64,000 bases of DNA from NCBI GenBank assembly GCA_947095585.1, contig OX352762.1, positions 118,512,930-118,576,929 of the forward strand, written 5' to 3'. The position numbers were made by a program, and so were the translations under genes. Source of the stretch: Nephrocerus scutellatus (lineage: Eukaryota; Arthropoda; Insecta; Diptera; Pipunculidae). The notes below the pieces were generated by a model. The model was given only the letters and a program-made list of their open reading frames with translations. It did no database searches and was not told the DNA's origin. Shown piece after piece: positions 30,275-63,097 of this stretch (position 1 is the first letter of the stretch; the number at the start of each line of letters is the position of its first letter).

Positions 30275-31543
30275 ATGTCAAATTTGGACACTGGACTTCG
30301 AGTCCGACCCTACAGATACAATGATCTAGGATTCCCGAAAATGGAAAAACCTCAAATAGTAGGTTACTTCAGTGTTACCGGAAATAGAGATTACGAACCA
30401 GGTGCTCGAAATTTGCGATATTACAAACAACCTAAGAAATTTCCTTTCGACTTAAATGAAGGATTTGAAACTCGCATCGAAAAACCACAAACAGCGTATG
30501 ACAAAAAATTGAACAATATGTTGCAATTTATTTACAATAGTCGCGGGGATAACTACAACAATGTGCCACCAAAACTACTTGTAGATGCAGACTTCATATG
30601 TTTCAATGGTCTATTTCGTCTTATAATGTGCACACCTTGTGAATTCCGTAATGACTGGTGCATTCATGTGACAAAGTTTAAAGGAAATCATTACCTCTAC
30701 CACAGTGAAACGGTGAGAGCGGAAAATGATCGGGTTAACAAGACGGAAGAACGAAAGAAAATGAGTTCGTGGGGCTACAAGTTTGAGCAGCACTGCTTAA
30801 CTGGTACATCAGCAATCAGTTCGTAGCTTACTCATTGTCATTATGTATTCCTTATATAGAAAATACTTCCCAAGACCCGAACACCAGTCTACCAGTTGAC
30901 GAATGCGCTGAATTCTATTGCGTTTTTAAGACGAACCTGCTAGGTCTTGATTTGTTATATGGTGCTGAAATAGACGGTGTTATAAGTGAAACACCTATGT
31001 TGGTTATAGCTATTTTTAAATTTCATACCTGTATTAATAATTTGATTTTTAGCAATGAGGACATATCTACATTCAATAGCTTACGATTCGTTGAACTTAA
31101 AGTAACACAGCACGAACGCAGTGTATACCAGAAACAATCTTTTGAGCGATTCAGGAGTCGTGACTGGTGGTGCTTACTTGTTAACATAAAGGATGTTTTT
31201 TTGGGTGGCCGAAATGCTAATGGAATTGTAGAGAAAATCGATCATGTCGATGTGAGGTCATTGCCTGAACAAGGAAAAGTAAATCTGATTTCGATTTGCT
31301 TAAGTTGTAAAATCATTATTTCTTCAAATATTTCAGAGATACTGGACGCCGAATGTATGTACGAACTTTCTTGTACAATTTCTAGCTTGTGTAAAGTCTC
31401 TAATGCAGGATGTCAACTGTCCTTACACAGTATTTGAATTTTATTTCGACCCTCAAATGTCTAAGATTACATATAAACGCTTGAATGGGAAGACGATTCA
31501 TTCATGTTTGCCCGAATGGTACATAGATTTTTTGAATGAGTGA
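30275..31543 (+). CDS. DXO/Rai1-family protein, copy 1 (intact frame)
   Basis: Member of the DXO/Rai1/Dom3Z family, enzymes that remove incomplete or non-canonical 5' caps and degrade RNA. Exons 30275-30803, 30860-30998, 31053-31278 and 31337-31543 join in phase to 366 residues, the family length. Family landmarks: GYFSVTGNRDYEPGARNLRY, WGYKFEQ (motif II Glu), GAEIDG (ExD), FVELK (ExK), and NVCTNFLVQFLTC with CLPEWYIDF at the end. Compared with copy 2, six bases (two residues, QS) are missing after DWWC, which removes the conserved active-site Gln. The Arg in MLRF, probably motif I, is Gln here. So it has the best preserved metal site among intact copies, but activity is doubtful. It lies 1.3 kb from the head-to-head zinc-finger gene. 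Confidence 0.87.
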
Positions 31544-31679
31544 TCAATTCAACGAAAAATAAAGAAAAACGAGCAGCGACTCAGACAAAAGAAGTGTAGT
31601 TGATTTAACTTTATTCTTGACTCAGATTTTCTGGGTAGCTCAGAATAATATATTACATATGATGAAATGAAATGGCATC

Positions 31680-32155
31680 GGCGTCTAACAGTAGCATGTT
31701 AGCTTCACATATTTTGCCAGAAAATCGCAGTTTTTTGAAAGCAGGTACTTGGCAAAAGTGTTAATACTTTATGCGTTTTTTCGCTTTCTTAGAGGACGAT
31801 GATGGGAATTTTTCATCTGAATCGCTTTAGATTCGAATTTTGTCGGGTCGAATTCATCGCCTGTACAATATTTATCTGTTCATTGCTGAACCTGTGGCTT
31901 CTTCCATGGGTGTGCAAAAACGCGCCAAGTGAGCACGCGAAATTTTAGATTTGTCAGACTCATCTTTGTTTGCGTTTTCACTAATTTTTTCTTGAGGTCG
32001 TCTGTGGTTTCTTTTCACTATTACTATAGTATAGCATACCAATAGTAATTCATTCCAATTACACATCAGGTCATCGTACACACCATACCTTGACATCTAC
32101 TTGATATCTACATTGATAAATATTAACAAAAATGGTTTGTTAACAAAAGTTAAGG
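31680..32155 (-). pseudogene. Fragment of a second ZAD zinc-finger gene
   Basis: This stretch aligns by eye with the linker-coding part of the zinc-finger gene at about 28085-28592: the same order of CATGTTAGCTTCA, GGTACTTGGC, AAAAGTGTTAATACTTT, CTGAATCGCTTT and AATATTAACAAAAATGGTTTG. Frames are broken by indels, although one minus-strand piece still reads LAHLARFC-like sequence. It keeps the orientation of the parent gene. The 5' part is replaced by the repeat block starting near 32160; homology to the parent's upstream region resumes near 34527. It suggests a former [zinc finger + DXO] duplication. Confidence 0.8.
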
Positions 32156-32176
32156 CGTTTCAACGGTATGACCGGC

Positions 32177-34492
32177 AATGGGGCGAATAGAGCCCCCCTT
32201 GACGGAGTTAGAGCAAAAAACAGACTTTTTCATAAAAATGTAAAAAGGGGCGTGTTTAAAAATGGGTGGGGCTAAATATTGGTATCAAATGAAAGGTGAT
32301 AATTAGGACTACACAGCCATGCTTATTTTATGAGCGTGTCATTCTTTTTTCGTGCAATTTCATATAATTGAGGGGTTTTCATACGATTGAGTTTTTCCCA
32401 TACAAAACCGGGTGATATATAGCAAACTACGGTACATCCGGCATTCGATTTAGCCTTATTGACACCCCTCACCTTAAAGCCCTAATTGAGCAGATTGCGA
32501 AAATCGCCATCTTGTTTGGGGGAGACGCCCACTTTAGGTGTGAGGGGCGTCCAAAGTTTTGATTTTTTTTTTCAGAAAAATGCATTTTTCTAAGTTCTTA
32601 GAAGGAGGTATACGCTTTTTAAAAGGAAGAACTCATTTCTGAATATAAACCAACTGAGCAATGGAGTCACACTTTTTAAAAGGAAGAACTTCAATAAAAA
32701 TATAAGTTAATTGAGCGCAAATAATTTTACAGTGCGTTCATAATTTTTAAATACGCTTTTTAAAAGGAAGAACTCATTTCTGAATATAAACCAACTGAGC
32801 AATGGAGTCACACTTTTTAAAAGGAAGAACTTCAATAAAAATATAAGTTAATTGAGCGCAAATAATTTTACAGTGCGTTCATAATTTTCGAACACGCTTT
32901 TTAAAAGGAGAACTCATTTCTGAATATAAACCAACTGAGCAATGGAGTCACACTTTTTAAAAGGAAGAACTTCAATAAAAATATAAGTTAATTGAGCGCA
33001 AATAATTTTACAGTGTGTCCATAATTTTTAAATACGCTTTTTAAAAGGAAGAACTCATTTCTGAATATAAACCAACTGAGCAATGGAGTCACACTTTTTA
33101 AAAGGAAGAACTTCAATAAAAATATAAGTTAATTGAGCGCAAATAATTTTACAGTGCGTTCATAATTTTCGAACACGCTTTTTAAAAGGAAGAACTCATT
33201 TCTGAATATAAACCAACTGAGCAATGGAGTCACACTTTTTAAAAGGAAGAACTTCAATAAAAATATAAGTTAATTGAGCGCAAATAATTTTACAGTGTGT
33301 CCATAATTTTTAAATACGCTTTTTAAAAGGAAGAACTCATTTCTGAATATAAACCAACTGAGCAATGGAGTCACACTTTTTAAAAGGAAGAACTTCAATA
33401 AAAATATAAGTTAATTGAGCGCAAATAATTTTACAGTGCGTTCATAATTTTCGAACACGCTTTTTAAAAGGAAGAACTCATTTCTGAATATAAACCAACT
33501 GAGCAATGGAGTCACACTTTTTAAAAGGAAGAACTTCAATAAAAATATAAGTTAATTGAGCGCAAATAATTTTACAGTGTGTCCATAATTTTTAAATACG
33601 CTTTTTAAAAGGAAGAACTCATTTCTGAATATAAACCAACTGAGCAATGGAGTCACACTTTTTAAAAGGAAGAACTTCAATAAAAATATAAGTTAATTGA
33701 GCGCAAATAATTTTACAGTGCGTTCATAATTTTCGAACACGCTTTTTAAAAGGAAGAACTCATTTCTGAATATAAACCAACTGAGCAATGGAGTCACACT
33801 TTTTAAAAGGAAGAACTTCAATAAAAATATAAGTTAATTGAGCGCAAATAATTTTACAGTGCGTTCATAATTTTCCAACACGCTTTTTAAAAGGAAAAAC
33901 TCCTATCTGAACATAAATGAATTGAGCGCAAAGCATTTTACAGTGCGTCCATAATTTTCGAACACGCTTTTTAAAGGAAAAACTCATTTCTGAATATAAA
34001 GCAACTAGCAAATGAAATCATATCATCATATCTTTTTGTATGAAAAAAACTCAATCATATGTAATGAGTATAAAATAATCTACCTTCCGTTAAAATAAGG
34101 CCACAGCCATAAAGATAGCATGGCTGTGTAGACCTAATTATCACCTTTCATTTGATACCAATATTTAGCCCGACCCACTTTTAAACACGCCCCTTTTTAC
34201 ATTTTTATGAAAAAGTCTGTTTTTTGCTCTAACTCCGTCAAGATGGGCTCTATTGGCCCCATTTTTTTTTAAATGAAAGGTATTTTTATTACCTTTCGTA
34301 TGATACCAATTAACCCCCATAACTCCTTCTAAATACTTAGAAAAATGCATTTTTCTGAAAAAAACTCAAAACTTTGGACGCCCCTCACACCTAAAGTGGG
34401 CGTCTCCCCCAAACAAGATGGCGATTTTCGGAATCTGCTCAATTAGGGCTTTAATGTGAGGGGTGTCAAGAAGGCCAAATCGAATGCCGGAC
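32177..34492. mobile_element. Composite element: inverted arms around a 141-bp satellite
   Basis: The left flank holds block A (about 32177-32400) and block B (32438-32612). The right flank holds inverted copies of A (about 34060-34262) and B (34318-34491). The order is A-B, satellite, A'-B', each inverted singly, so it is not a simple terminal inverted repeat. Block A includes AAACAGACTTTTTCATAAAA; block B includes GGGGGAGACGCCCACTTTAG. No transposase frame exists. It sits inside the decayed zinc-finger paralogue. It could be a non-autonomous DNA element that amplified an internal minisatellite. Confidence 0.75.
32611..34000. repeat. 141-bp satellite array, about 9 full units
   Basis: ACGCTTTTTAAAAGG starts units at 32612, 32753, 32894, 33034, 33175, 33316, 33457, 33598, 33739 and 33880. 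The period is 141 bp with one 140-bp unit. Units are nearly identical except at the junction, which alternates between TTTTTAAATACG and TTTTCGAACACG, with GTGTGTCC or GTGCGTTC just before. That gives a 282-bp dimer. The array decays after 33880. Each unit has an internal echo: CTTTTTAAAAGGAAGAACT occurs twice per unit. Confidence 0.95.
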
Positions 34493-34519
34493 GTTCCGTT
34501 GTTTAGCCACAGAATATTA

Positions 34520-34605
34520 CTTTTTGTTTCCAGCGAGCAAAGAAGAAGCGAAAGTAGAGCGAAGCCAAACAACTGTGTTGTGACTGTGTTCTTTGAGTTC
34601 TGATA
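34520..34605 (-). pseudogene. Remnant of the 5' region of the zinc-finger paralogue
   Basis: TTCCAGCGAGCAAAGAAGAA, then GAAGCCAAACAACTG and TGTTGTGA match the region just upstream of the intact zinc-finger gene (about 29028-29092) in order and orientation. Together with 31680-32155 this brackets the composite satellite element, so the element replaced the middle of this paralogue. Confidence 0.6.
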
Positions 34606-34624
34606 ATTTTAATTTAGTTTTTTT

Positions 34625-34875
34625 TAAAAACCTGCCGCAGATTGATTTTTTAGCTTTCAAGTTGTTCGTTTTTTCTAAAAAACCAATCTACGGTAGATCG
34701 GATTTCCCCTCTAACAGATCTTGATATTTAAGGATATTTACCCATATTTTCATCAACTAAAACAACAACTCATGCAACAAAGCAATATAAACAAAAGGTT
34801 CTCGGCTTTCGTGTTCGTTTTTTCGAGAAAAAAATCTGAGCTCGAGCGCAGATTTCTAAAACAAAAAAAAACGTA
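34625..34875. mobile_element. MITE family B copy
   Basis: Carries CCAATCTACGGTAGATCGG, CCCCTCTAACAGATCTTG, AACTCATGCAAC and TCGAGAAAAAAATCTGAGC in the same order as the copy at 20030-20265. Only non-coding sequence is present. Confidence 0.75.
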
Positions 34876-34879
34876 AACG

Positions 34880-35460
34880 TTTCATGATATTCTCGTTGAT
34901 ATTTTCTCATGATACCAGCTAGACAACCCTGTAGTTGAAAAAACGAAGAAAGTGCGCGTAAGTCAAAACTAATGCTTGATTTATATTTGGACCGTGCAAG
35001 AAAAAATGAGCAGGATGGCTGTATGCGCATAACACGAAGACCCCTCATCCGGGCTGGATGTTTGTAGGGGGTAATGGTGAGGTTAGTCAATCTATTCTGG
35101 CTTACCAAAATTTTAATTTAACTATAGTCGTCCTGCGCATTTTTCTCGCACTGCTCAAATGTAAATTAAGCATAACTAACATTCCGTACTTTGTTTAGAT
35201 GGATATAAAGAATAACGACAGCTTGTCAAGGTGTGCAGATGATAAAAAAACGCAAAATATCTGCTTTTGGTTTAACTTTTCACTTCTCTTTCACACATGA
35301 GATATTATTGACATCCTTACTTTTTTGAATAGCTGATAAGATATGGATTTTACCTTAATAATAATAGTTATGTATACGTGTTGCCCATTCTTTCTCCAAA
35401 AAAACTACATTTTCTATCAACTAAAAATAAAATGAAGTTCCACCTCTGAGTGGGAAAGCT
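34880..35460. other. Spacer with repeat-derived pieces
   Basis: Contains ATGCTTGATTTATATTTGG and AGAAAAAATGAGCAGGA, phrases that recur near 54590-54640 and 55015-55060, so part of it is repetitive. No gene is supported. Confidence 0.45.
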
Positions 35461-35461
35461 T

Positions 35462-35580
35462 GTCAATTCGCCGTTCGGATCCGGCCTTAAATTGTAGGTT
35501 CATTTGTGCCCAGAAATGGTCGCGAGAAGCTAGGTCTCGGACCGCAAAGGTCTGTCGCGCCGAATATTATTATTATAACG
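35462..35580 (+). mobile_element. SINE 3' fragment
   Basis: CGCCGTTCGGA, GGCCTTAAATTGTAGGT, GAAGCTAGG, TCTGTCGCGCCGAATATTA match the 3' half of the tRNA-derived SINE at 40872-41166 (which lies on the minus strand). The tail is a short TTA repeat. The tRNA-like head is missing, as expected for 5' truncation during target-primed insertion. Confidence 0.75.
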
Positions 35581-36064
35581 TCCTGCAAGAAATATGTCAG
35601 TTTCCAGTACCCCTGACAAATAAACGTTGTCAAGTACATTTAAGTACTTGTGTATAGATTATAAATAAAAGACAATCAACCAAAAAAAATGATTTTTCTT
35701 CAGAGATATGCTTATGGTTGCTTCCACATATCAGTGAAGCACCCCAAAAAATTTAATTGGTACGATCATTTGTAGTATTTGTATTAAAGCAAATTCATAT
35801 ACAATATATTAGATGTACTCCTTGTTGACTTGAAAATTGAAATGCTGAAAAGTGCTACTATTAAATTCTTTGAGACGACAGCACTGCTGCCAATAGAAAA
35901 TGAACATTGATTTAAAATTGACATTTTGCTCTCAAATTTAAACGCTACATATATATATCTGCCAATAGAAACCGATATAACTTATTATTTACTCTCAAAT
36001 AAAGTAGTTGTGCTTGGAATATTTTTTTATTGGAGCCGGGAACAAATAAGTAAATTAGTTAACT

Positions 36065-37355
36065 ATGTCAAATTTGGACACTGGACTACGAGTTCGGCCC
36101 TGTAGATATAATTATCTGGGATTCCCGAAAATGGAAAAACCTCAAATAGTCGGTTACTTCAGTGTTACCACAAATCGAGATTACGAACAAGGTGCTCAAA
36201 ATTTGCGATATTACAAACTACCTAAGAAATTTCCCTTCGACTTAAATGAAGGATATGAAACTCGCAAAGAAAAACCTGAAACAGCGTATGATGAAAAATT
36301 AAACAATATACTGCGATATATTTATAATAGCCGCGGAAAAAACTACAACCATGTGCCACAAAAACCACTTGTAGATGCTGAGTTCATTTGTTTCAGAAGT
36401 CTACCTTGTCTTATAATGTGCACACCTTATGAATTCCGTAATGACTGGTGCATTTATGTGACAAAGTTTAAAGGAAACTATTACCTCAACGAAACTGAAA
36501 CGGAGCGAGCGCAAAATGATCTGACTTACAACAAGACGGATGAACGGAAGAAAATGAGTTCGTGGGGCTACAAGTTTGAGCAGCAATGTTTAACTGGTAC
36601 AACAACACTATTTTTTTTTTGAGTCAATCAGTTCGTAGCTTACTCATGAACTAATCCTTATATAGGAAATCCTTTCCAAGACCCGAACACCAGTCTACCA
36701 GTTGACCAATGCGCTGAATTCTATTGCGTTTTTAAGACGAACCTGCTAGGTCTTGATTTGTTATATGGTGCTGAAATGGACGGTGTTATAAGTGAAACAC
36801 CTATGTTGGTTATAGCTATTTTCAAAATTTCATACCTGTATTAATAATTTGATTTTTAGCAATGAGGACATATCTACATTCAATAGCTTGCGATTCTTGA
36901 ACTTAAAGTAAGACAGCACGAACGCAGTGTATACCAGCAACAATATTTTGAGCGATTCGAGAGTCGTTACTGGTGGTGCCAGTCCTTACTTGTTAACATA
37001 AATGATATATTTTTGGGTGGCCGAAATGCTAACGGAATTGTAGAGAAAATCGATAATGTGGATGTGTGGTCATTGCCTGAACAAGGAAAAGTAAATCTGA
37101 ATTCGATTTGCTTAAGTTGTAAAATCATTGTTTCTTCAAATATTTTAGGGTTACTGGACGCCGAATGTATGTACGAACTTTCTTGTACAATTTCTAACTT
37201 GTGTAAAGTCTCTCAGGATGTCAACTGTCCTTACACAGTACATATTTGAATTTTATTTCAACCCTAAAACCTCTAAGATAACATGTAAACATTTAATTGG
37301 AAAGACGAATAATTCATGTTTGCCTGAATGGTACATAGATTTTTTGAATAAATGA
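36065..37355 (+). pseudogene. DXO/Rai1-family copy 2, frame broken in exon 3
   Basis: Exon positions are 36065-36596, 36666-36804, 36860-37090 and 37149-37355. Exons 1 and 2 are open and keep WGYKFEQ and GAEMDG. In exon 3 one base is missing just before the ExK motif (CGATTCTTGAACTT against CGATTCGTTGAACTT in copy 1), and a TAA follows three codons later. The active-site Gln is still visible in the old frame (YWWCQSLLVN). In exon 4 a 4-base deletion is followed by a 4-base insertion, restoring the end of the frame. So only exon 3 kills it, which suggests recent loss, or a sequencing error. A truncated protein could still be made. Confidence 0.85.
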
Positions 37356-37429
37356 TCAATTCAGCAAAAACAAAAGTTGTAATTGTTTTTTCTTAATTTT
37401 GCACTCAGAGATCTAATCTACTTATCTCA

Positions 37430-39365: not shown

Positions 39366-39372
39366 GTCAGCT

Positions 39373-39728: not shown

Positions 39729-39815
39729 CCTATAGCCCGTCACCAAAATTCCTCCGACGACGACTTCGTTAGCAAGTTGGAATGGGAATTGGATATTTCA
39801 ATGTTAAGCATCCAT

Positions 39816-40860: not shown

Positions 40861-40871
40861 TTTAGTTTTGA

Positions 40872-41166: not shown

Positions 41167-41367
41167 GGAAAAATTATAGAATTATACAAATTAGGAATCT
41201 GAATAATACTATTCGTCAATTTCTTCATGGAAACTGCTGTCTGATTTATAATTGACATTTTACAGTCTGATTTATAATTTACATTTTCCAAAAAAAAATC
41301 ATTAGAAGATGATAAAGACATTAATAACTGACCCATATCAAAATTTAATAAAATCACAAATGAATAA

Positions 41368-43163: not shown

Positions 43164-44452
43164 ATGTCAAATTTAGATACTGGACTACGATTCCGACCTT
43201 ATAGACATTCGTATAATGATCTAGAATTCCCGGAAATGGAAAAGCCTGAAATAGTAGGTTACTTCAGTGTAACCACAAATAGAGAGTACGAGCCAGGTGC
43301 TCAAAGTTTGCGATATTACAGACCACCTAAGAAATTTCCTTTCGACTTGAATATAGGATTTCATATTCGCAAAGAAAAACCTGAAACAGCGCACTATGAA
43401 AAATTAAATCATATGTTGCGATTTATTTACAAAAGCCGCGAGGATAACTACAACAACGTGCCACCAAAACCACATATAGATGCTGAGTTCATTTGTTTCA
43501 AAGGACTACTTCGACTTATCATGTGCACACCATTTGAATTCCGTAATGGCTGGTGCATTCATGTGACAAAGTTTAAAGGAAAATATTACCTCTACCAAAC
43601 TGAAACGGAGAGCGCGCAAAATTATCGTCTTTACAAGACGAATGAACGAAAGAGAATTGATTCGTGGGGTTACAAGTTTAAGCAGCATTGTTTAACTGGT
43701 ACATTAGTATGATTTTAGGCAATTAGTTCGAAGCTTACTCATTACCTATTTCTTATATAGGAAATCCTTCCCAGGAGCCGAACACCAGTCTACCAGCAGA
43801 CGAATGCGCGGAATTCTGTTGTGTTTACAAGACGAACCTGCAAGGTCTTAAATTGTTATATGGTGCCGTAACAGACGGTGTTATAAGTGAAACACCTATG
43901 TTAGTTGTATCTGTTTTCACAATTTCAAAAATGTATTAATACTTTGATTTTTTAGCATTGAAGACTTATCTACCTTTAATAACTTGCGGTTCGTTAAACT
44001 TGAAGCTTTAAGATTCGAGTTAGATGAACGCCGACAAGAAGATTTTAAACGATTTAAGATTCGTGACTGGTGGTGCCACTCCTTTCTTGTTAACATAAAG
44101 GATATATATTTGGGTGGCCGAAATGCTTATGGAATTGTCGAGAAAATCGATCATTTAGATGTAAGATCATTGCCAGAACAAGGAAAAGTAAACTCGATTT
44201 CGATTTGCTTAGGTTGTAAAATAATTGTTTCTTCAAATATTTCAGAGATACTGGACGCCGAATGTATGTACAAACTTTCTTGTGCAATTTCTAACTTGTG
44301 TTAAGTCTCTAATGCAGGATGTCAACTGTCCCTACACAGTATTTGAATTTTATTTCGACTCTCAAATGTCTAAGATTACATATAAACGTTTGAATGGGAA
44401 GACGATTTATTCGTGCTTGCCCGAATGGTATATAGATTTTTTGAATGAATAA
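43164..44452 (+). CDS. DXO/Rai1-family protein, copy 3 (intact, active site replaced)
   Basis: Exons 43164-43698, 43761-43899, 43956-44187 and 44246-44452 join in phase to 370 residues with no stop. The family fold is well kept: GYFSVTTNREYEPGAQSLRY, MLRFIYKSRE, TPFEFRNGWCIHVTKFKG, WGYKFKQHCLTG, KDIYLGGRNAYGIVEKIDHL, CLPEWYIDF. Catalytic positions are changed throughout: motif II Glu is Lys (GYKFK), the first acid of ExD is Val (GAVTDG), ExK is reversed to KLE, and the active-site Gln is His (WWCHSFLVN). Only the Asp of ExD remains. Expected to be inactive as a nuclease, yet the frame is preserved. It may act as a binding or decoy protein, as known for Drosophila Cutoff; this is inference. 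Confidence 0.87.
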
Positions 44453-44519: not shown

Positions 44520-44964
44520 TCTTAAATATCTGCTTAGCTCAGATGTGAATTTTTTAACAATATATACTACATATATGAAATTAGTTAACTTTCTCTGTTG
44601 AGTGGACTAACTTTTTGTCCCTTGGCAATCCAAACAATGCCGAGAATCCGCATTATTGGTTGTGGTCCATTTTATCGATGGCAACTTCTTCGTCTTAAGC
44701 TGTTAAGTTTGTGTTGAATCTTTGGGCTTTGACGTTCTTTTACTATGTCTCGTTCCATTGGATATCTTCAAATACTTGTAAGTAGTTGAATTTTTTAAAA
44801 GCATGACATCTAATGGCAGAGAAATAATTACTGGAAGGTAAAATAAAATCCAAATTGACCACATGTTCTGATAGAAAACCCAAAGGAGATTTGCAAGTCA
44901 GGCATATGTTACCTCATTTTTCTGATTCAAAAACTATATTAACCGTTTGTTTTTACCTTTATAT
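44520..44964 (-). pseudogene. Conserved block after DXO copy 3, interrupted by gypsy
   Basis: Matches the block after copies 2 and 7. On the minus strand a stretch after the CCTTCCAG acceptor stays open for about 40 codons in one frame (LLKNSTTYKYLKISNGTRHS), then stops. The block continues beyond the gypsy element at 49050-49120 (TTGTTCATATTCTTTATGCA), as in copy 7 near 63609. The protein is unidentified. Confidence 0.45.
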
Positions 44965-45663
44965 TGTTACGAAATTCAGGCTTTTGAGTTCGTAATGGAT
45001 TTTGCAATTAAAACACAACACAAGTTAATTAATTTAAAAATAACAACTTTAATTCAAACAATAAAATTAACACAAGTTCACAATCTATATTGGTGATTAC
45101 TTTAATTGTACACAATAAGAACACTAGTACTTCACAATAATTCTCTTAGGTTATATCTTTATTACTTAACAAGAACTTGTACAACTGCACTGGTTAAATT
45201 CCAAACAACTAATGATCTTACTTCAACCTAACACCTCTATTTATACTCAATCATAAGCATCCAGAAACTTCTAATATTGCAGACAGAAATATCCAGAAAT
45301 TGTAGCCTTATTCCCTTATTTACAACTAACGATACTTATATGTAATGAGTCATCTTCTAAAAATAGACTACATGTTCAATCATGTTCTTTTACAAAATTC
45401 GGGCAAACCGCAAAAACTGGTTTGACTACTTGTTTTACTAGTACACAATGATTCAAACTTGCAGGCGGTTACATTTCAAATTTCAAATAACCTAATAGTC
45501 TTAGAACATGAGAGTGCTTATTTTTTTAGTACCCAGTATTTTCTTAGTTCTAATTTCGCACTTATTTTTGGTACGCTAATAGTCTTTGCCTAAAAGTATG
45601 CAACTAATTTAGCACTTCTGATTCTAATTCCATTATATACGCTACTAACTACTTTTCGTAACA
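44965..45663 (-). repeat. Gypsy 3' LTR
   Basis: 699 bp, TG...CA ends, preceded on the element strand by the purine-rich tract. Its left neighbour is the 4-bp target duplication ATAT (44961-44964). Confidence 0.93.
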
Positions 45664-45674
45664 TTCCCCCCACC

Positions 45675-46930
45675 TTAATTCTGTTCGTCCCGAACAGATT
45701 CAGCCCTCCTTCTGTTGTTGTACCTTGTCAATCTGTCAATATGAACAACTTTCATTTTACATCTGGGGCTTTGTTGAATCCGATATACGACATCATTAAT
45801 CCTCTTAATGATCTTATAAGGTCCTTCCCAACTCTGCTGTAGTTTTAGAGATTTACCTTTTCTTCTCTTGGGATTGTAAAGCCAGACCAAATCTCCTTCC
45901 TGAAATCCACCACAGTTTGCTCGCAGGTCATATCGCGTTTTCATCCGGTTGCTGGCATCCACTATGTTGCTCCTTACTGCAGCATGAACAGCGGTCATCC
46001 TCTGCCTTAGATCACTAACATAATTCTCCTTTGTTGTCGGCTCTACTGGTGGTGATCCAAATTTGATGTCGCATGGTAGACGAAGTTCTCTGCCAAAGAC
46101 AATCATTGCTGGAGAGTTTTTAGTTGTGTTGTGGACAGCACTACGATAACCCATCATAAACAACGGTATACAACGATCCCATTCATCTTGGTTGGTATTA
46201 ACTTCTTTTCGCAGATGCTCTTCCAGCGTCCTGTTGAACCTTTCGACCATTCCGTCTGACTGTGGATGTAACGGAGTAGTCCTCGTTTTCTTGATGTTAA
46301 GTACTTGACACAGCTCTTGAAAGACTAGCGATTCAAAATTCCGCCCTTGGTCGGAATGTAATTCCAGCGGTACTCCAAATCTGCAGATCCAATTGTCCAC
46401 GAATGCCCTAGCCACCGTGCTAGCTTCCTGGTTTGCGATGGGATACGCTTCTGCCCATTTACTGAAGTAATCAATGCACACGAGTATATAGCGATTTCCA
46501 TCTCTTGTTTCTGGGAATGGACCAGCTATGTCCATTGCCACCCGCTCAAATGGTGCTCCAACATTGTACTGTTGCATTTTTCCTCTAATTTTTGGCTGCG
46601 GTCCTTTGCTTGCTGCGCACATGTCACACGTTCGACACCAGTCTTCCACATCTCTACGGCAGTTGACCCAATAGAAGCGATTCCTGACTTTATCTAGCGT
46701 CTTATTAACGCCCAAATGCGCTCCTGATGTACCACTATGTAATTCTTGCAGGACTTCTTTGACTCGATTCGTTGGTAGCACAATCTGTGATTTTGTGCTT
46801 TGACCATCAGCCGATTCCCATTGCCTTACCAGTAGTCCATCTTCCAATCTCAATGACTGCTATTGAGCCCAGTAACTTTTTACTGTAGGACTTGCTGTTG
46901 CAATCTCGTGCCACTCCGGTCTTTCACCTT
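45675..46930 (-). pseudogene. Gypsy pol remnant: integrase
   Basis: The open part, 46853-45675, encodes an H2C2 zinc-binding region (HSGTSGAHLGVNK, CRTCDMC) and the integrase core with all three acids: VAMDIAGPF, LHSDQGRNFES and DGMVERFNRTLEEHL. A C-terminal GPYKIIKRINDVVYRI segment follows. Upstream, WLQGERPEWHEIATASP is also pol-like but is cut off by a TAG at 46862-46860. Everything before integrase in pol is deleted. Could not replicate by itself. Confidence 0.92.
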
Positions 46931-48165
46931 GCAGCCAACACTTCATTCATCGACTTTCCTCTGGCTGTTGTCCTCAAATGAAGCTTCAATTGTTCATCTC
47001 GAATAGCATTGATGAACGCATCTACTGCCAGTCCGTCCAAGATACCAGCCGGGACTCCACAATAGGCTTGTCGTGCGAGCTTAGTTATTTCCCGCTCTAA
47101 TTCTTGAAGTCGTTCTCCTCTCTGCTGTTTCTTCATCTGGAGCTGTATTTTGCTTAGCTCCTGTGTGTGAGACTGTCCATAGCGCAAGTTCAACTCCTTC
47201 AAGATTCTTCCGGAACTCATCTCGGCATTTGGAATCATTTGTAATACGTCTGCTGCCTTGCCTCTCAATGCCAGGATTATAGAATTTAGTTGCTCTTCAG
47301 CACCCCATCCGTTGTGTTGTACTGCAGCTCCAAACTGTACTTTAAAATTTTCAAATGCTGTCTCACCATCGAACGCAGGTGGCTTCAAAATTCCTTTCTG
47401 GTTACTAGAAGATTCTGGAATTACTCTTGTACCGCTTTGTTGAGTGTTCTCTCTGACGAATTGGGTACGGCTTTCCAGTCGGGTCTCAATTTCTTTAATT
47501 TTGCCTTCACCACTCATGTTCGTTTCGAGCGATTTCACTTCCTCTTGCATTGTTAATTGAATTTCACTCATCTCACCCCTTAACTTTTCCTGGATAACAT
47601 CCAGCTTTTGATTTTACTGATCGAATTTGGAGTTCAGTTCTTGGGTTTGCCGAGTAAATTCCTGCTTCAGTTCCTGGCTTTGTTTCTGCGATTGTTGAAT
47701 TTGCTGTTCAAACTTAACGGTCAATTTGGAATTTAACTGCTGATTTTGCTGATCCAGTTTTTGGCTTTGCTGTTCCAACTTGTCGCTAATTTGAAAATTC
47801 AAATCTTTCTTCAGACCTTGACTTTGCTGTTCCAACTTCTCGTTTAATTTGGAACTCAATTCTAGATTCTGCTCACTTTGCCGGTCAAGCTTGCTGTTCA
47901 TTTGCTCATTTTGCTGCTTTATTTGTTGCATTAAAACTTGCAACATGGCCTCCATGTTTGGCACACCACTCTTTTCTTCCAAAGTAGCCGTTTTTCTCTC
48001 TACTAACTCCGTCTCAATTGAAAACGGTTCACCAGTCTGCTGTTTTTCTGCTTTAACGACTTGTTGTAAACGGAGAAATAGCTCTTGCTTATTTCCTGCA
48101 GTACTTAGACCTCGCCTTCCAAGCTCTTCTTTAAGCTCCTGGAAACTATAGGATTTAATGTTCAC
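46924..48165 (-). pseudogene. Gypsy gag with one internal stop and lost 3' end
   Basis: The frame opens at 48165 with a SAP-like segment (SYSFQELKEELGRRGLSTAG), followed by a long Gln-rich coiled coil. A TAA at 47616-47614 breaks it, and the same frame then continues through a capsid-like domain (ILKPPAFDGETAFENFKVQF to LKLHLRTTARG) to 46924. The expected zinc knuckle is absent because the deletion joint to pol lies near 46930. A SAP-like N-terminus is uncommon for gag, but it is seen in some insect gypsy lineages. Confidence 0.85.
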
Positions 48166-48346
48166 TGCACTTTGTAAAGTTTCACTTAATTTGTTTACTG
48201 TCTCAAGGTTTGGAAAATCACCAAATAATTTATTGTTCCAAAATGTTACTGTCTCACAATTTGCAAATTTTTATTGTATCTCAATTTACACGATTTGCAA
48301 AATTTTAATGTCTCACGATTTGCAAAATCCCACGTCTGACACCAAT

Positions 48347-49045
48347 TGTTACGAAATTTAGGCTTTCGAGTTCGTAATGGATTTTGCAATTAAAACACAA
48401 CACAAGTTAATTAATTTAAAAATAACAACTTTAATTCAAACAATAAAATTAACACAAGTTCACAATCTATATTGGTGATTACTTTAATTGTACACAATAA
48501 GAACACTAGTACTTCACAATAATTCTCTTAGGTTATATCTTTATTACTTTACAAGAACTTGTACAACTGCACTGGTTAAATTCCAAACAACTAATGATCT
48601 TACTTCAACCTAACGCCTCTATTTATACTCAATCATAAGCATCCAGAAACTTCTAATATTGCAGACAGAAATATCCAGAAATTGTAGCCTTATTCCCTTA
48701 TTTACAACTAACGATACTTATATGTAATGAGTCATCTTCTAAAAATAGACTACATGTTCAATCATGTTCTTTTACAAAAATCGGGCAAACCGCAAAAACT
48801 GGTTTGACTACTTGTTTTACCAGTACACAATGATTCAAACTTGCAGGCGGTTACATTTCAAATTTCAAATAACCTAATAGTCTTAGAACATGAGAGTGCT
48901 TATTATTTTAGTACCCAGTATTTTCTTAGTTCTAATTTAGCACTTATTTTTGGTACGCTAATAGTCTTAGCCTAAAAGTATGCAAATAATTTAGCACTTA
49001 TGATTCTAATTCCATTATATACGCTACTTACTACTTTTCGTAACA
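48347..49045 (-). repeat. Gypsy 5' LTR
   Basis: 699 bp, TG...CA ends, next to the tRNA-Leu-like primer-binding site. The target duplication ATAT follows at 49046-49049. Promoter elements were not assigned. Confidence 0.93.
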
Positions 49046-50413: not shown

Positions 50414-50942
50414 ATGTCAAATCTGGACACTGGACTACGAGTTCGACGATATAGATACTTGTATAACGATCTAAAATTCCCGAAGATGGAAGAACCTCAA
50501 ATAGTAGGTTACTTCAATGTTACCACAAATGGAGATTACGAACCAGGTTCTCAAAGTTTGCGATATTACAATCCACCTAAGAAGTTTCCTTTCGATTTAA
50601 ATGAAGGATTTGAAACTCGCAAACCAAAAACAGCGTATGGAAAAAAATTGAACAATATGTTGCGATTAAATTACAATAGTCGTGGGGATAACTACAACCA
50701 TGTGCCACCAAAACTACTTGTAGATGCAGAATTCATCTGTTTCAGAGGTCTACTTCGTCTTATAATGTGCACACCATTTGAATTCCGTAATGACTGGTGC
50801 ATTCATGTGACAAAGTATAAGGGAAATTATCACCTCTACGAAACTGAAACGAAGAGATCGCAAAATGATCGGGCTGACGAGACGGATGAAGACAAGAAAA
50901 ATAGTTCGTGGGGCTACAAGTTTGAGCAGCACTGTTTAACTG
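50414..50942 (+). pseudogene. DXO/Rai1-family copy 4, exon 1 only
   Basis: An open exon 1 of 176 codons with GYFNVTTNGDYEPGSQSLRY, MLRLNYNSRG, TPFEFRNDWCIHVTKYKG and WGYKFEQHCLTG ends at a good GT donor (50943). About 45 bp of the first intron follow (CAATCAGTTCGTAGCTTACT), then homology stops; no exon 2-4 follows before copy 5. The donor-side sequence ACAATTTTTTAAAGCAATCA is shared with copy 7, its likely closest relative. The lost 3' part was replaced by, or deleted next to, a G-rich minisatellite. A short protein of about 180 residues is possible but would lack most of the active site. Confidence 0.85.
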
Positions 50943-51224: not shown

Positions 51225-51960
51225 GACTTTAAGGAGGCGGGTCTTGAGGGGTGTTCTTATGGGCTCTTGAGGGTGGTGTTGTGGGGTCAGGGGTCTTGAG
51301 GTGGTCTTGAGGGTATCTTAAGGTGGTTTCAACAGGGTCTTATATGTTATTCTGTCACGGTTTTTTTCATTCTGTCTCGTACGCATTTTTGGGGTAGGTG
51401 GGTCTTGAGATGGGACTTGAGGTGATTCATTATGGGGCCTTCAGGTGGGTTTAGACGGATCTTGAGGGGGTTTAAAGAGGGTTTTGAGTGGGATGTTGAT
51501 TGTTGGGGTCGTAAAGTAATCTTGAGGGAGTTTTGAGATAGGTCTTGAGAAGTTATTAGGTGGTCTTGAGTAGGTCCTTAAAAGGGTTTTGTGGTGGTCT
51601 TTAGGGAATCTTGAGTGTGGTCCTGAGGCGTTCTTAGAAGGGGTCTTGAAGTGGTCTTGCGGGGGTCTCGAGGGAGTTTTGTGAGATGCTTTAGTGGGTT
51701 CTTGAGGGGATCCTTAGGTGGTCTTGAGGGGATTTTGAGAGGGTCTTGAGTGGATTCTTGAGGGGGTCTTAAGAAGGTTTTGAGGGGGTCTTGAGTGAAG
51801 TCTTGTGTGGTTTTTATGTGTTCTTAAGTCTGGTCTTGAGTATTTTCAGGGGTTCTAAAGGGAATTTTAAGGTGGGTTTTAGGGGGTCTTGAGGAAATAT
51901 TAATGGGAATCGGGGTCTTTTGGAAGTCCTTTGAGGGTATTTTGGGCGACTTGTAGGTGT
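51225..51960. repeat. G-rich, C-poor minisatellite
   Basis: Irregular repeats of TTGAGGGGGTC and GGTCTTGAG fill about 730 bp. The plus strand is rich in G and T and poor in C, except in GTC. Long runs of G (GGGGTC, GGGG, GGGTC) could form quadruplexes. No protein is encoded on the plus strand; the minus-strand frame is a Pro/Lys/Thr-rich shadow. Confidence 0.85.
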
Positions 51961-52722: not shown

Positions 52723-54009
52723 ATGTCCAATTTAGACACTGGACTACGATTCCGACCCTATAGATATTCGTATAATGATCTAGAATTCCCGGAGATGGAA
52801 AAGCCTGAAGTAGTCGGTTACTTCAGTGTAACCACAAATCGAGACTACCAACCAGGTCTTCAAAATTTGCGATATTATAAACCACCTAAGAAATTTAATT
52901 TTGACTTAAATGAAGGATATAAAATTCGCAAAGAAAAATCTGAATCAGCGAACGATGAAAAATTAAATTATATGTTGCGATTTATTTACAATAGCCGCGA
53001 GAATAACTACAAAAATGTGCCACCAAAACCACTTACAGATGTTGAGTTCATTTGTTTCAAAAGTCTACTTCGTCTTATAATGTGCACACCATTTGACTTC
53101 CGTAATGACTGGTGTATTCATGTGACAAAGTTTAAAGGAAAATACTACCTCTACCAAATTGAAACGGAGAGCGCGCAAAATTATCGTCTTTACAAGACGG
53201 ATGAACGAAAGAGAATTGATTCGTGGGGTTACAAGTTTAAGCAGCATTGTTTAACTGGTACATCAGTATTTTTTTGGCAATTAGTTCGTAGCTTACTCAT
53301 TACCTATCTCTTATATAGGAAATCCTTCCCAAGAGCCGAACACCATTCTACCAGTAGACGAATGCGCTGAATTCTGTTGCGTTTACAAGACGAACTTAAA
53401 AGGTCTTAAATTGTTATATGGTGCCGTAACAGACGGTGTTATAAGTGAAACGCCTATGTTAGTTATATCTATTTTCACAATTTCAAAAATGTATTAATAC
53501 TTTGATTTTTAGCAATGAAGACTTATCGACATTTAATAAATTGCGGTTCATTAAACTTGAAACAGTACGTTACGAACTAGATGAACACCAACAAGAAGAG
53601 TTTAAACGAATTAAGATTCGTGACTGGTGGTGCCACTCATTTCTTGTTAACATAAAGGATATATATTTGGGTGGCCGAAAGTCCAATGGAATTGTCGAGA
53701 AAATCGATCATTTAGATGTGAGATCATTGCCAGAACAAGGAAAAGTAAACTCGATTTCGATTTGCTTAAGTTGTAAAATCATTGTTTCTTCAAATATTTC
53801 AGAGATACTGGACGCCGAATGTATGTACAAACTTTCTTGTACAATTTCTTACTTGTGTAAGGTCTCTAATGCAGGATGTCAACTGTCCTTACACAGTATT
53901 TGAATTTTATTTCGACCCTCAAATGTCTAAGATTACATATAAACGCTTGAATGGAAAGACGGTTCATTCGTGTTTGCCCGAATGGTACATAGATTTTTTG
54001 AATGAATAA
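52723..54009 (+). CDS. DXO/Rai1-family protein, copy 5 (intact, active site replaced)
   Basis: Exons 52723-53257, 53319-53457, 53513-53744 and 53803-54009 join in phase to 370 residues. As in copy 3, motif II is GYKFK, ExD is GAVTDG, ExK is reversed (FIKLE) and the active-site Gln is His (DWWCHSFLVN). The remaining fold elements are present: GYFSVTTNRDYQPGLQNLRY, MLRFIYNSRE, TPFDFRNDWCIHVTKFKG, NVCTNFLVQFLTC, CLPEWYIDF. Shared changes show that copies 3, 5 and 6 descend from one already altered ancestor. The encoded protein appears identical to that of copy 6. Probably not a functioning nuclease. Confidence 0.88.
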
Positions 54010-54019
54010 TCAATTAAAC

Positions 54020-57039: not shown

Positions 57040-60000
57040 AAGTCCAAAATGCCTTATAAAGTGGGGACTCCCCTATAATGTACTAAAAGTTTGGTATTAC
57101 GTCAAATGAAAATTGCAAAAAATTTAAATGCCCCATTGAAAGCTGCATTTGTTAGTCGGCGCTTACTGGTGTGTGTGTGTTTAGTGGCGTGATTTTACAG
57201 AAATTAAAAATTTAAGCAAACAGGTCAACTATGTCCAATTTAGACACTGGACTACGATTCCGACCCTATAGATATTCGTATAATGATCTAGAATTCCCGG
57301 AGATGGAAAAGCCTGAAGTAGTCGGTTACTTCAGTGTAACCACAAATCGAGACTACCAACCAGGTCTTCAAAATTTGCGATATTATAAACCACCTAAGAA
57401 ATTTAATTTTGACTTAAATGAAGGATATAAAATTCGCAAAGAAAAATCTGAATCAGCGAACGATGAAAAATTAAATTATATGTTGCGATTTATTTACAAT
57501 AGCCGCGAGAATAACTACAAAAATGTGCCACCAAAACCACTTACAGATGTTGAGTTCATTTGTTTCAAAAGTCTACTTCGTCTTATAATGTGCACACCAT
57601 TTGACTTCCGTAATGACTGGTGTATTCATGTGACAAAGTTTAAAGGAAAATACTACCTCTACCAAATTGAAACGGAGAGCGCGCAAAATTATCGTCTTTA
57701 CAAGACGGATGAACGAAAGAGAATTGATTCGTGGGGTTACAAGTTTAAGCAGCATTGTTTAACTGGTACATCAGTATTTTTTTGGCAATTAGTTCGTAGC
57801 TTACTCATTACCTATCTCTTATATAGGAAATCCTTCCCAAGAGCCGAACACCATTCTACCAGTAGACGAATGCGCTGAATTCTGTTGCGTTTACAAGACG
57901 AACTTAAAAGGTCTTAAATTGTTATATGGTGCCGTAACAGACGGTGTTATAAGTGAAACGCCTATGTTAGTTATATCTATTTTCACAATTTCAAAAATGT
58001 ATTAATACTTTGATTTTTAGCAATGAAGACTTATCGACATTTAATAAATTGCGGTTCATTAAACTTGAAACAGTACGTTACGAACTAGATGAACACCAAC
58101 AAGAAGAGTTTAAACGAATTAAGATTCGTGACTGGTGGTGCCACTCATTTCTTGTTAACATAAAGGATATATATTTGGGTGGCCGAAAGTCCAATGGAAT
58201 TGTCGAGAAAATCGATCATTTAGATGTGAGATCATTGCCAGAACAAGGAAAAGTAAACTCGATTTCGATTTGCTTAAGTTGTAAAATCATTTTTTTTTCA
58301 AATATTTCAGAGATACTGGACGCCGAATGTATGTACAAACTTTCTTGTACAATTTCTTACTTGTGTAAGGTCTCTAATGCAGGATGTCAACTGTCCTTAC
58401 ACAGTATTTGAATTTTATTTCGACCCTCAAATGTCTAAGATTACATATAAACGCTTGAATGGAAAGACGGTTCATTCGTGTTTGCCCGAATGGTACATAG
58501 ATTTTTTGAATGAATAATCAATTAAACGAAAAATAATACAAATAAAAACATAATCGATGTGCTGCTCCTAAAAAAATTGCTTTTTCTTAATTTTGCACTC
58601 AGAGATCTAATCTGCATAGCTCAGATGTGGAGAGTTTAACTATATGTACTACATATGAGGAAATCGTTAACTACCCTCGTTAACTGGACTACTTTGGTCC
58701 TTTGGTAATCCAAACAATGGTGAAAATCCTGCATTATTGGCTGCAGCGTCCATTTTGTCAATGTCAACTTCTTCTTAAGCCGTTCAGTTAATTTTGAATC
58801 TTTGGCTTTGACGTTCCTTTACTTTTTTCGTTCTATTAACTATCTGCAAATGCGAGACCGAAGGACGAATAATTGGGACTAAGGAAAGTTTACAAGGAAT
58901 TTTGTCCATTGCAGATACACATATGTTTAAAATGTATAGAAAATCGGACTAATTAAAAAAAATATATGCCCCCCGCGCCGTAAGACCCATTCACTCCACA
59001 AATTGTACAAAAAGTTTTGTCCATCGGAGAACGGATATACATATGTTTAAAATTTTAAGCAAATCGGGTTAATTTTTATTTTTGTAAATTTTGCATTATG
59101 CTTGATTTACATTTGTGGCGTGCGAGAAAAAATGAGCAGGACGGCTGTTAAATTGAAGTAGTAGTTAGCCAGACGAGAGAAGTAGTATATTTTTCAATGT
59201 TACCATAATGCTATAGATAACATCTCCCATGTTACTATAAAAGCTGCATTTTATTTGCGGAGCGAGTTCGGAATTCGAATGTCAAAACGAGCAAAACCGC
59301 AGGTTTTACAATTCCAGGGAAGGAATTCGACAGTGCAATTGTTGTTGTAATCCCCTATTCCTCGGCAATTAAAATACAGCTAAAATAACTATAACTTTCG
59401 TGTAGTGTCAATTTCTTCTGACTAACCTAGCTGCAAAAGGAGAGTGCTTGCCAATAGAAACCGATATAATTTAGTAGATAGGGTGCAGTCTTAAATTCAG
59501 CCGCTGTACAGTTAATGCAACGTAACGCTTGATTTACATTTCTGGCGAGCGAGAAAAAATGACCAGGACGGCTGTTAAATTGAATTAGTAGTTAGCCAGA
59601 GGAGAGAAGTAGTATATTTTTCAATGTTACAATAATGCTATAGATAACTTTTCCTATGTTACTATATATAAACTATAACATTCGTGTAGTGTTAATGTTT
59701 CCGGCTAACTACAACTAACCAAATGACGCCTCGGCAGCGAACTGCGCTGCACACAAAGCACAGAGCTCAGACTTTGCCGTGATCTGATGCGATATACCGA
59801 TATTTAAAAATTGTATATGGGGGTCCCTAGGGGGCCGATCACTCAAAATTTTTACAAAAAATGTATTTGTATGGGAGCCCCCCGAACCCGAGGTCCGAGG
59901 AGAAAGTATTGTCACCGGAAATATACATGTGTGCAAAATTTCAATAAAATCGGGCTATGGGAAGTGGGTTAAAAATTGATCAGAAAATCTGACCAGCCAG

Positions 60001-61547
60001 CCAGCCACGTGCACGCGAAGTTAATATAGAGAATTTAAAAAGAATATAATCGACACTAATATAACAAAAAAATATACGCGTTCGAATCGTGAGTTATGAA
60101 AGTTCATATAAAAATCCCATGGAAAAATCACTTTCCCGAATTTTACAACTCTTCAGGAAAATTTTCCAATTTCTTTTCTTCCTATAACCTTATCCGGACT
60201 ATAACGAACATTTTTTTTAAAAATTGAACCGTTTAGCTGTGAATATGTAACAGAGGGACAGAGATACTTTTACCCTTTACCCCTACACCCCGATTTTATT
60301 CAAACCTTGCACCATGACAACACTTTCTATTAAAATTTTGGTCGGGAGGTTCCCATACAAATTTTTTTTAATAATCCACCCAATTTTTTTCAAGTCGGGG
60401 TCGGGGAGGAACCATACACATTTTTTAGTAAAAAGTATCAGATTTTCTTCAAATTTTATATATATGAATCTTCGATTGACAACACTTTTTGTAAAATTTT
60501 GGAAGTAATTGGGCGTGGTCGGGTGTCTTCTATACAATTTTTTTTAAAAATTATTCAAACAACACACATATGTATCTCCGATTAGAGGAATTACAAGAAA
60601 AACTTTAATTTTTATGGACAGTTTTTTTTATTTTAAAAATATATCTGACAAGTTAGAAGTATTCTCACTGGTTTTGAATTTCTTTTTGCAAAAATTGGCA
60701 TTAAGAAGTTTTTTTTTTTTTTTTTTAAATTTCTGCGCAGACAAACTCATTTACTCATTTTAAATAAACAAAAATCAGTCAATCAAACAATCAACAATCA
60801 TACAATCAATAAAAAAATTTGAAAGTCAAAAGCAAATTTAAAAATGAGCCAAACATGAACAATCAATGGGTAACCGGCCGATTCCGCTAGCACAATTCCA
60901 CTAGACACAATTCCACCGGACACAATTCAATTGGCACAATTCCCCTGGGGAACAATTTAACTTGCACAATTTAACTTGTATAGTTACACGAAAACGAAAA
61001 TACAGAAGTACACACATTAATATTTTATTTGCGTATGCGTGGTTTTAATTGTACCGTGTATCGTTTTTTATGTTTTTTTTTTCAAATATTTTGCAATTAT
61101 GTATTATATACCATTCGTATACTTTCTTTGGGTAACTTTTTAAGTTTAACTTTTTTTGTAATTAAACGATCGCGTTCGAATTACCACCCTAAATGCGTTT
61201 GATTATCAAAAAGTTTAATTGAGCAAGTTGAATTATGCAAGTTGCATTGTGCCAAGTGGAATTGTGTCCAGTGGAATTGTGGTAGTGGAATTGGCCTAGA
61301 ATCAATTAATGTCGTATTTGTTTTGTTTTAGAAATCTGCGCTCGATCGTAGATTTTTTCTCGATAAAAAGAACACGAAAGCCGAGAATCTTTTGTCTACA
61401 TTGTGCACATGTCTACATCAAGATCTGTTAGAGGGAAAATCCGATCTACAGTAGATTGGTTTTTTTTGGAAAAAACAAACATCTTGAAAGCCAAAAAATC
61501 AATATGCGCCAGACAAAAAACAACATTATACTGCGTTTTAATCGACA
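57040..61547 (+). repeat. 4508-bp tandem duplication, unit 2
   Basis: Second unit of the duplication described for 52532-57039. It ends exactly where the conserved upstream block of DXO copy 7 begins (61548). The start of its block is copy-5-like (CCTTATAAAGTGGGGACTC) whereas copy 7's reads CCTTTGAAAGTGGGGATTC, as expected if crossing-over took place at the start of these blocks. Confidence 0.95.
57231..58517 (+). CDS. DXO/Rai1-family protein, copy 6 (duplicate of copy 5)
   Basis: Exons 57231-57765, 57827-57965, 58021-58252 and 58311-58517. All exons match copy 5; the two visible differences (ATTGTTTCTTC against ATTTTTTTTTC near 58292) lie inside intron 3, so the proteins are identical as read. 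The T-rich change strengthens the polypyrimidine tract before the acceptor. The same replaced active site is present as in copies 3 and 5. Being almost identical, copies 5 and 6 may be an assembly artefact or a very young duplication; identity in both repeats and genes cannot tell these apart. Confidence 0.87.
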
Positions 61548-61830
61548 AAGTCCAAAATGCCTTTGAAAGTGGGGATTCCCCTAGAATGTACTATAAAGTT
61601 TGGTATTACGTCAAAAGCTAATTGCAAAAAGGGGATTCCAACAAAAAGTCTATAGGAATGCACTATGCAAACACAGTTCCGTTACTAATAATTGTGCTGT
61701 TTTTAGTCGACGCTCAACGCTTAGACTAGCTGTTGATTTGCGCTGTCATTGGCTTAGTTTTCAAAAAATTAAAAGATTCAAGTGTTTTTTTTTTATTGAA
61801 GCTGGCAAATATTAAGTAAACAAGTTAACT
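61548..61830 (+). promoter_or_regulatory. Upstream region of DXO copy 7
   Basis: Starts with the conserved block (AAGTCCAAAATGCCTTTGAA, GTGGGGATTCCCCTAGAATG), then ends with the other leader type (ATTGAAGCTGGCAAATATTA, AAACAAGTTAACTATG) found before copies 1, 2 and 4. So copy 7 carries both kinds of upstream sequence and links the two subgroups. Confidence 0.5.
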
Positions 61831-63097
61831 ATGTCCAAATTAGACACTGGACTACGAGTCCGACTCCATAAATACTCGGATAATGATCTAAAATTGCCGA
61901 AAATTGAAAAACCCCAAATAGTAGGTTACTTCAGTGTTACCACAAATAGAGATTACGAACCAGGTGCTCGAAATTTGCGATATTACAAACCACCTAAGAA
62001 ATTTCCTTTCGACTTAAATGAGGGATTAAAAATTGTAAAAACAAAACCTGAAGCAGTGTATGATGAAAAATTAGACACTATGTTGCGATTTATTTACGAT
62101 AACTACCGCAAGAATTACAACAATGTGCCACCAAAACCACTAGTAGATGCTGAGTTCATTTGTTTCAGAGATCTACTTCGTACCATAATGTGCACACCTT
62201 TTAACTACGATGACTGGTGCATTCATGTGACAAAGTATAAAGGAAATTATTACCTGTACGAAACTAAAACGGAGAGATGGCAAAATGATCGGGCTAACGA
62301 AACGGATGAAGAAAAGAGAAATAGTTCGTGGGGCTACACTGTTTAACTGGTACAATTTTTTAAAGCAATCAGTTCGTAGATTACTCATTACCTATTGCTT
62401 TTATAGAAAACCCTTCCCGACACCCGAACACCAGTCTACCAGTAGACGAATGCGCTGAATTCTGTTGTGTTTATAAGATGAACCTGCAAGGTCTTAAATT
62501 GTTATGTGGTGCCGTAACAGACGGTGTTATAAGTGAAACACCAATGTTAGTTGTATCTATTTTCACAATTTGAAAAATGTATTAATACTTTGATTTTTAG
62601 CAACGAGGACATATCTACATTTAATAGCTTACGATTCGTGGAACTTAAAATCTTGCAGCACGAACTCAATGAACGCCAACAAAAAACTTTTAATCGATAT
62701 AAGAGTCGTAACTGGTGGTGCCAGTCCTTTCTTGTTAACATAAAGGATATTTATTTTGGTGGTCGAAATGCTAAAGGAATTGTCGAGAAAATCGAGCATT
62801 TGGAAGTGAGCTCATTGCCTGAGCAAGGAAAAGTAAACTTGATTTCGATTTGCTTAAGTTGTAAAATCATTGTTTTTTCAAATATTTCAGGATTACTGGA
62901 CGCCGACTGTGTGTACAAACTTTCTTGTACAATTTCTAACTTGTGTTAAGTCTCTAATGCAGGATGTCAACTGCCCTTATACAGCATTTGAATTTTATTT
63001 CGACCCTAATATGTCTAAGATTACATACAAACGTATGAATGGAAAGACGATTTATTCGTGTTTGCCCGAATGGTACATAGATTTTTTAAATGAATGA
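61831..63097 (+). pseudogene. DXO/Rai1-family copy 7, 13-base deletion in motif II
   Basis: Exon positions are 61831-62349, 62407-62545, 62601-62832 and 62891-63097. Compared with copy 4, thirteen bases are missing in GGCTACAAGTTTGAGCAGCA, leaving GGCTACACTGTTTAA. This removes KFEQ of motif II and creates a stop at 62344. Exons 2-4 stay open. They show GAVTDG (first acid lost, as in copies 3, 5 and 6), but FVELK and WWCQSFLVN are intact, as in copies 1 and 2. Copy 7 is thus a mosaic or an intermediate between subgroups. A protein of 171 residues could be made; the full-length one could not. Confidence 0.85.

Follow-up and report, generated by a model that had tools for sequence, protein, structure and literature searches.

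A tandem array of RAI1-family genes

We analysed a stretch of 64,000 nucleotides from the pipunculid fly Nephrocerus scutellatus (assembly GCA_947095585.1, contig OX352762.1, positions 118,512,930 to 118,576,929 of the forward strand; hereafter the window), which carries seven copies of a gene of the DXO/Rai1 decapping family (RAI1, PF08652), all in the same orientation, at 30275-63116. Neighbouring copies, named C1 to C7 from left to right (Table 1), start 2.3 to 7.3 kb apart. A previous sequence-only reading of the window had proposed just such an array, seven copies in a single orientation, and the check that it suggested, a search with the RAI1 Pfam profile, bore out the family call. Nine exon open reading frames (ORFs) were submitted, drawn from all copies except C6, whose coding exons equal those of C5. 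Each matches RAI1, with E-values of 3e-37 to 4e-32 for six first exons and of 3e-21 to 2e-15 for three later-exon ORFs. The spliced models of C1, C5 and C3 match the whole RAI1 domain at 261, 256 and 258 bits, where the cut-off is 26.8. The best relative of solved structure is mammalian DXO (chain 6aiy, E 3e-36 for C5), and the nearest named proteins are four tephritid DXO homologues with 46-49% identity to C5.

The four-exon structure that had been claimed for the full copies is common to the six copies with a full layout, with introns of 56-69, 54-56 and 58 nucleotides. The third intron junction was placed by comparison with a gall-midge protein (P0001), and as placed it yields a good alignment of the C-terminal half with fly homologues; a position further downstream, which gives a wrong C-terminal stretch, was ruled out by the same comparison. 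In assembling the homologue set, one protein search and one alignment used the model with the further-downstream intron, and later searches and counts used the final model.

The copies range from intact to truncated, as the sequence-only reading had it: four are open from ATG to stop, the two frameshifted copies each reach an early stop, and the stub C4 has no homology to the other copies beyond 50982. Its picture of birth and death is borne out too. Three copies are broken, and exon-1 identity is 81 to 91% in all copy pairs other than C5/C6. C5 and C6 are a very recent duplication, and since the units that contain them differ at only 4 of 4508 positions, one of the pair could be an assembly duplicate. 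Exchange between copies, by gene conversion or unequal exchange, is indicated by C1, in which the identities of two exons disagree: exon 4 is closer to C5 than to C2 (95.7% vs 90.6%), and exon 3 is the reverse (78.3% vs 93.8%).

In a tree of 27 proteins, array copies C1, C2, C3, C5 and C7 form one clade (100/100) within higher flies. Its neighbour is the group of Tephritidae and Calyptratae (fork 89/79), and Syrphidae lie outside. That the array stands outside Tephritidae and Calyptratae may come from the history of the species or from a duplication of greater age. The trees do not include C4, and C6, being identical to C5, was left out of the tree, near-invariance, codon-pair and omega analyses.

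Table 1. Copies of the RAI1-family gene in the window and the duplicated units around C5 and C6
Feature	Position	Strand	Description
C1	30275..31543	+	Open, 366 amino acids; exons 30275-30803, 30860-30998, 31053-31278, 31337-31543
C2	36065..37376	+	Frameshifted by a 1-bp deletion just before the ExK motif; end from DNA homology
C3	43164..44452	+	Open, 370 amino acids; exons 43164-43698, 43761-43899, 43956-44187, 44246-44452
C4	50414..50982	+	Truncated stub: exon 1 (50414-50942) and part of intron 1; GYKFE kept
C5	52723..54009	+	Open, 370 amino acids; exons 52723-53257, 53319-53457, 53513-53744, 53803-54009
C6	57231..58517	+	Open, 370 amino acids, protein and coding exons identical to C5; exons 57231-57765, 57827-57965, 58021-58252, 58311-58517
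C7	61831..63116	+	Frameshifted by a 13-bp deletion at GYKFE; end from DNA homology
Two tandem 4508-bp units with C5 and C6	52532..61547	+	4 mismatches in 4508, none in coding exons

Active-site residues and selective constraint

Mouse DXO numbering was transferred to the array through the alignment with chain 6aiy, and eight active-site positions were followed: R132, G133, E192, E234, D236, E253, K255 and Q280. Five of them (E192, E234, D236, E253 and K255) make up the metal site, with D236 as the second acidic residue of ExD. In mouse DXO, E234 and E253 are described as binding metals directly and E192 as contacting a metal-bound water, and R132, Q280 and K255 as touching substrate phosphates (PMC7293010).

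The metal-site motifs GxKxE, ExD and ExK are intact in C1 and in the frameshifted C2, and are broken in C3, C5 and C6, where these motifs and WWxQSF read GYKFK, GAVTD, KLE and WWCHSF. Six substitutions, R132K, E192K, E234V, E253K, K255E and Q280H, are found in C3, and C5/C6 carry the same six together with G133S. In C1 the metal site is complete, but R132 is replaced by N, and an in-frame deletion of Q280-S281 removes the QS of WWxQSF. The codons of C2 are canonical for the metal site, R132 and Q280, with G133 changed to S, and C7 combines E234V and G133D with retained E253, K255, R132 and Q280, the E192 site itself being deleted. The substrate-contact residues R132, G133 and Q280 are not retained as a set in C1, C3 or C5/C6.

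How unusual these changes are was judged against 108 homologues from protein searches. A sample of 84, each of at least 330 residues and with P0025, P0090 and P0101 left out by hand as over-long or carrying a second domain, yielded 21 near-invariant positions (at least 95% conserved), which include all eight active-site positions. C5 has lost seven of the 21, and these comprise 7/8 active-site positions vs 0/13 others (Fisher p 7e-5); C3 has lost six, 6/8 vs 0/13 (p 5e-4). Both losses in C1 fall in the active site (R132 and Q280), as does the single loss in C2 (G133). Two of 18 readable positions are lost in C7 (G133 and E234), and one of ten in C4, outside the active site (Y142H). The contrast stays when the threshold is lowered to 90%, which gives 34 positions (C5 7/8 vs 1/26, C3 6/8 vs 1/26), the one additional loss being that of Y124, outside the named set, in C1, C3, C4, C5 and C7. 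All 21 positions are kept in 68 of the 84 homologues; the other 16 lost at least one, and a change at any of the eight active-site positions was seen in one only (P0073, a partial record); none of the 13 higher-fly homologues, 12 named ones and P0081, changes any of the 21. Across all 108, the five metal-site residues are complete in 92, a motif falls in a gap in 12, and aligned substitutions occur in four: P0025 (534 amino acids), P0076, P0077 and P0078 (291, 308 and 226 amino acids). The label of decapping-family genes given by the sequence-only reading therefore stands as ancestry and probably falls as activity, with active-site losses in four of four open copies vs one of 84 homologues; likewise, the RAI1 family that it recognised from motifs is confirmed, and those motifs are broken in the open copies, in C1 only that of WWxQSF.

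The losses do not look like decay, and we consider it an unlikely, if the most serious, alternative that the array is plain birth and death, with copies made by unequal crossing over, having no function of their own, and the open ones being young pseudogenes. Three broken copies out of seven, the very recent duplication of C5 and C6, and the mosaic identities of C1, which are as expected of exchange between copies, all suit this view. Neutral decay would not be expected to concentrate the losses in the active site as found in C5, however, nor to leave the signature of constraint given by the codon models. Pairwise omega (the ratio of nonsynonymous to synonymous substitution rates), computed for 12 of the 15 possible pairs of distinct copies, ranges from 0.32 to 0.80 and so never reaches 1. 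Only for C1-C4 (0.80, p = 0.52) is omega = 1 not rejected; it is rejected for the other 11 pairs. The lowest value belongs to C3-C5, both of the altered type (0.32, omega = 1 rejected at p = 5e-6). In a five-copy tree, the C3 and C5 tips together have an omega of 0.33 (omega = 1 rejected, p = 2e-6), which becomes 0.37 when exon 4 is set aside (p = 8e-5); a value near 1, expected of neutral pseudogenes, was thus not found on the C3/C5 tips. Omega is 0.45 on the stem from which these two tips branch (p = 0.04) and 0.60 in the rest of the tree. Silent differences between C3 and C5 occur in all four exons (14/178, 5/47, 7/77 and 8/69 codons), which argues against a recent transfer of the motif-bearing exons between these two copies and for a split as old as that of the rest. 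Given the low omega on the C3 and C5 tips and the lack of recent exchange in their motif exons, copies of the C3/C5 type appear to have been kept by purifying selection after losing catalytic residues.

A predicted pseudoenzyme array and its alternatives

A familiar non-catalytic relative of DXO is eIF3d, a subunit of a translation factor. It is named together with Cutoff as a non-catalytic DXO homologue (PMC7293010), and it is by this description that the array resembles it. Another is Cutoff (Cuff), a member of the Drosophila Rhino-Deadlock-Cutoff complex. This Rai1-like protein is described as a homologue of Rai1 without key catalytic residues, thought to protect the 5' ends of transcripts from clusters of PIWI-interacting RNAs (piRNAs) (PMC11125864). 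A DXO-type domain without key catalytic residues is also what C3, C5 and C6 encode. The array differs from Cutoff in being multi-copy and in having members, C1 and C2, that keep the metal-site residues, and the likeness is drawn from the description of Cutoff. With respect to the DXO/Rai1 enzymes themselves, such as mouse DXO and the tephritid homologues, the array shares the full-length domain and, in C1, C3 and C5, identical residues at all 13 near-invariant positions outside the active site, and it departs from them in that C3, C5 and C6 are without six or seven of the eight active-site positions and C1 without two.

We lean towards the view that the tandem array arose from a DXO/Rai1 decapping gene and that its four open copies are predicted not to cut RNA, being likely to bind RNA 5' ends in a Cutoff-like manner; it looks as though a decapping enzyme had been converted in place into pseudoenzymes under selection. 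The predicted absence of cutting follows from the roles of these residues in mouse DXO and in EOL-1 of Caenorhabditis elegans. A mouse DXO triple mutant, E192S/E234Q/E253Q, whose design drew in part on the eIF3d and Cutoff sequences, is described as intended to bind without hydrolysing (PMC7293010), and the three glutamates altered in it are all replaced in C3, C5 and C6. For EOL-1, the substitution E197K, at the residue homologous to DXO E253, is reported as a recovered loss-of-function allele, and the equivalent residue is K in C3, C5 and C6 (PMC13129544). Replacing two glutamates near the metals with lysine (E192K and E253K), together with E234V, would leave a pocket that no longer holds two metal ions. 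Such a metal-free pocket could still accept a 5' phosphate or cap, and the bound protein might then keep particular RNAs safe from decapping and from 5'-3' decay or, alternatively, compete with an active DXO encoded elsewhere. The germline would be our best guess for the tissue, in analogy with Cutoff. More speculatively, and with clearly less confidence than we place in the non-cutting prediction, the array may represent a second, independent Cutoff-type system in a fly lineage, in which DXO pseudoenzymes with lysines at former metal sites form a metal-free clamp on RNA 5' ends and shield chosen RNAs, either piRNA precursors or RNAs targeted in a genetic conflict, and in which intermediate states of the conversion lie side by side.

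Several points weigh against the pseudoenzyme interpretation. C1, with all five metal-site residues, may yet be an active enzyme. As K255E and Q280H fall on residues that touch substrate phosphates in mouse DXO, RNA binding may likewise be changed or absent. R132, G133 and Q280 were included in the active-site set only after the array sequences had been seen, and with the five metal-site positions alone the enrichment is weaker (C5 4/5 vs 3/16, p 0.025; C3 4/5 vs 2/16, p 0.011). P0025, a wasp protein outside the sample of 84, aligns with four of five metal-site residues changed, and such changes may therefore exist elsewhere. A branch model with three omegas is not significantly better than one with a single omega (p = 0.07), which means that the altered copies are constrained but not proven to be more constrained than the others. 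Finally, no match named as Cutoff or as a Drosophila protein appeared in the protein searches, in which many matches are unnamed, and none named Cutoff in the PDB searches.

Tandem amplification of DXO genes has a precedent in C. elegans, which is reported to have eleven DXO homologues, most of them in tandem clusters, where most animals have one (PMC13129544), and the seven copies of the array likewise exceed that usual number. The literature links EOL-1 to the intracellular pathogen response (PMC13129544, PMC7735679), and an antiviral or transposon-conflict expansion of active decapping enzymes would fit this precedent and the five metal-site residues kept in C1. EOL-1 is treated as an active decapping exonuclease (PMC13129544), whereas the open copies of the array carry their changes as normal sequence. 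Against such an expansion, six or seven of the eight active-site positions are lost in C3, C5 and C6, and R132 and Q280 in C1. The conflict idea, which the sequence-only reading had put forward, also draws no support from the rates, as omega stays below 1 in every pair tested. We found no omega above 1 in these pairs, although values averaged over pairs and branches leave room for positive selection at a few sites. An expansion of active enzymes through conflict thus seems to us improbable, and less probable than plain birth and death.

Still less probable is that the array is the amplified orthologue of Drosophila cuff, i.e. the species' own cutoff locus, so that no independent conversion took place. 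Membership of the same family and the same class of active-site loss speak for it, as does the description of both cuff and CG9125 of Drosophila as Rai1-like (PMC6179187). Yet C5 has 46-49% identity with the four tephritid DXO proteins, and C1 and C2 keep canonical metal sites, and the loss therefore seems to have occurred inside the array. That a single locus was repeated in the assembly, the misassembly raised as a caveat by the sequence-only reading, has a bearing on C5 and C6, one of which could be an artefact, and is very improbable for the array as a whole, as the exon-1 identities outside C5/C6 are too low for an assembly echo and the flanks and intervening elements differ.

If the pseudoenzyme interpretation holds, the array may fill a gap left by Cutoff. 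Cutoff suggests that decapping enzymes can evolve into RNA-protection factors of the germline but, being a one-gene case, does not show the stages passed through on the way. In the array, copies whose metal sites are canonical (C1 and C2), a copy with E234V and with E253 and K255 kept (C7) and converted copies (C3, C5 and C6) lie within 33 kb and can still be aligned over their full length. Should expression and RNA binding be confirmed, the order of steps from enzyme to pseudoenzyme would become directly testable, as would the question of whether flies have repeatedly recruited dead DXO proteins. No tandem DXO array in insects was found in the titles and abstracts of the matches listed from the open-access literature; to the extent of that listing, an array showing enzyme-to-pseudoenzyme conversion among neighbouring copies is new.

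Surroundings of the array

The region does contain mobile elements, as had been noted previously, and we found nothing that links them to the function of the genes. A long terminal repeat (LTR) element lies on the minus strand at 44963-49045, starting about 500 bp after C3, with 701-bp LTRs that are 98.3% identical and an integrase ORF at 45675-46859. Reverse transcriptase was not found in the two of its three long minus-strand ORFs that were sent to Pfam, and the element may therefore be internally deleted. Between C1 and C2, a 141-bp satellite array (9.3 copies, 32612-33917) sits within inverted arms (172 nucleotides, 91% complementary) spanning 32177-34263, and the two probably form a single mobile element that carries the satellite inside it. 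At 51520-51795, about 0.5 kb past the end of C4, there is a degenerate G-rich 11-bp repeat. As to RNA genes, nothing in the window matched Rfam at gathering thresholds.

Just downstream of C1, the segment 31674-32153 repeats 28063-28592 at 70% identity. The latter belongs to a zinc-finger gene region, and a neighbouring gene has therefore also been partly duplicated. Further to the left of the array, ORFs within 2646-25841 carry RME-8_N, GYF and DnaJ domains and mark an RME-8/DNAJC13 gene, and a DNA photolyase ORF lies at 24768-25841.

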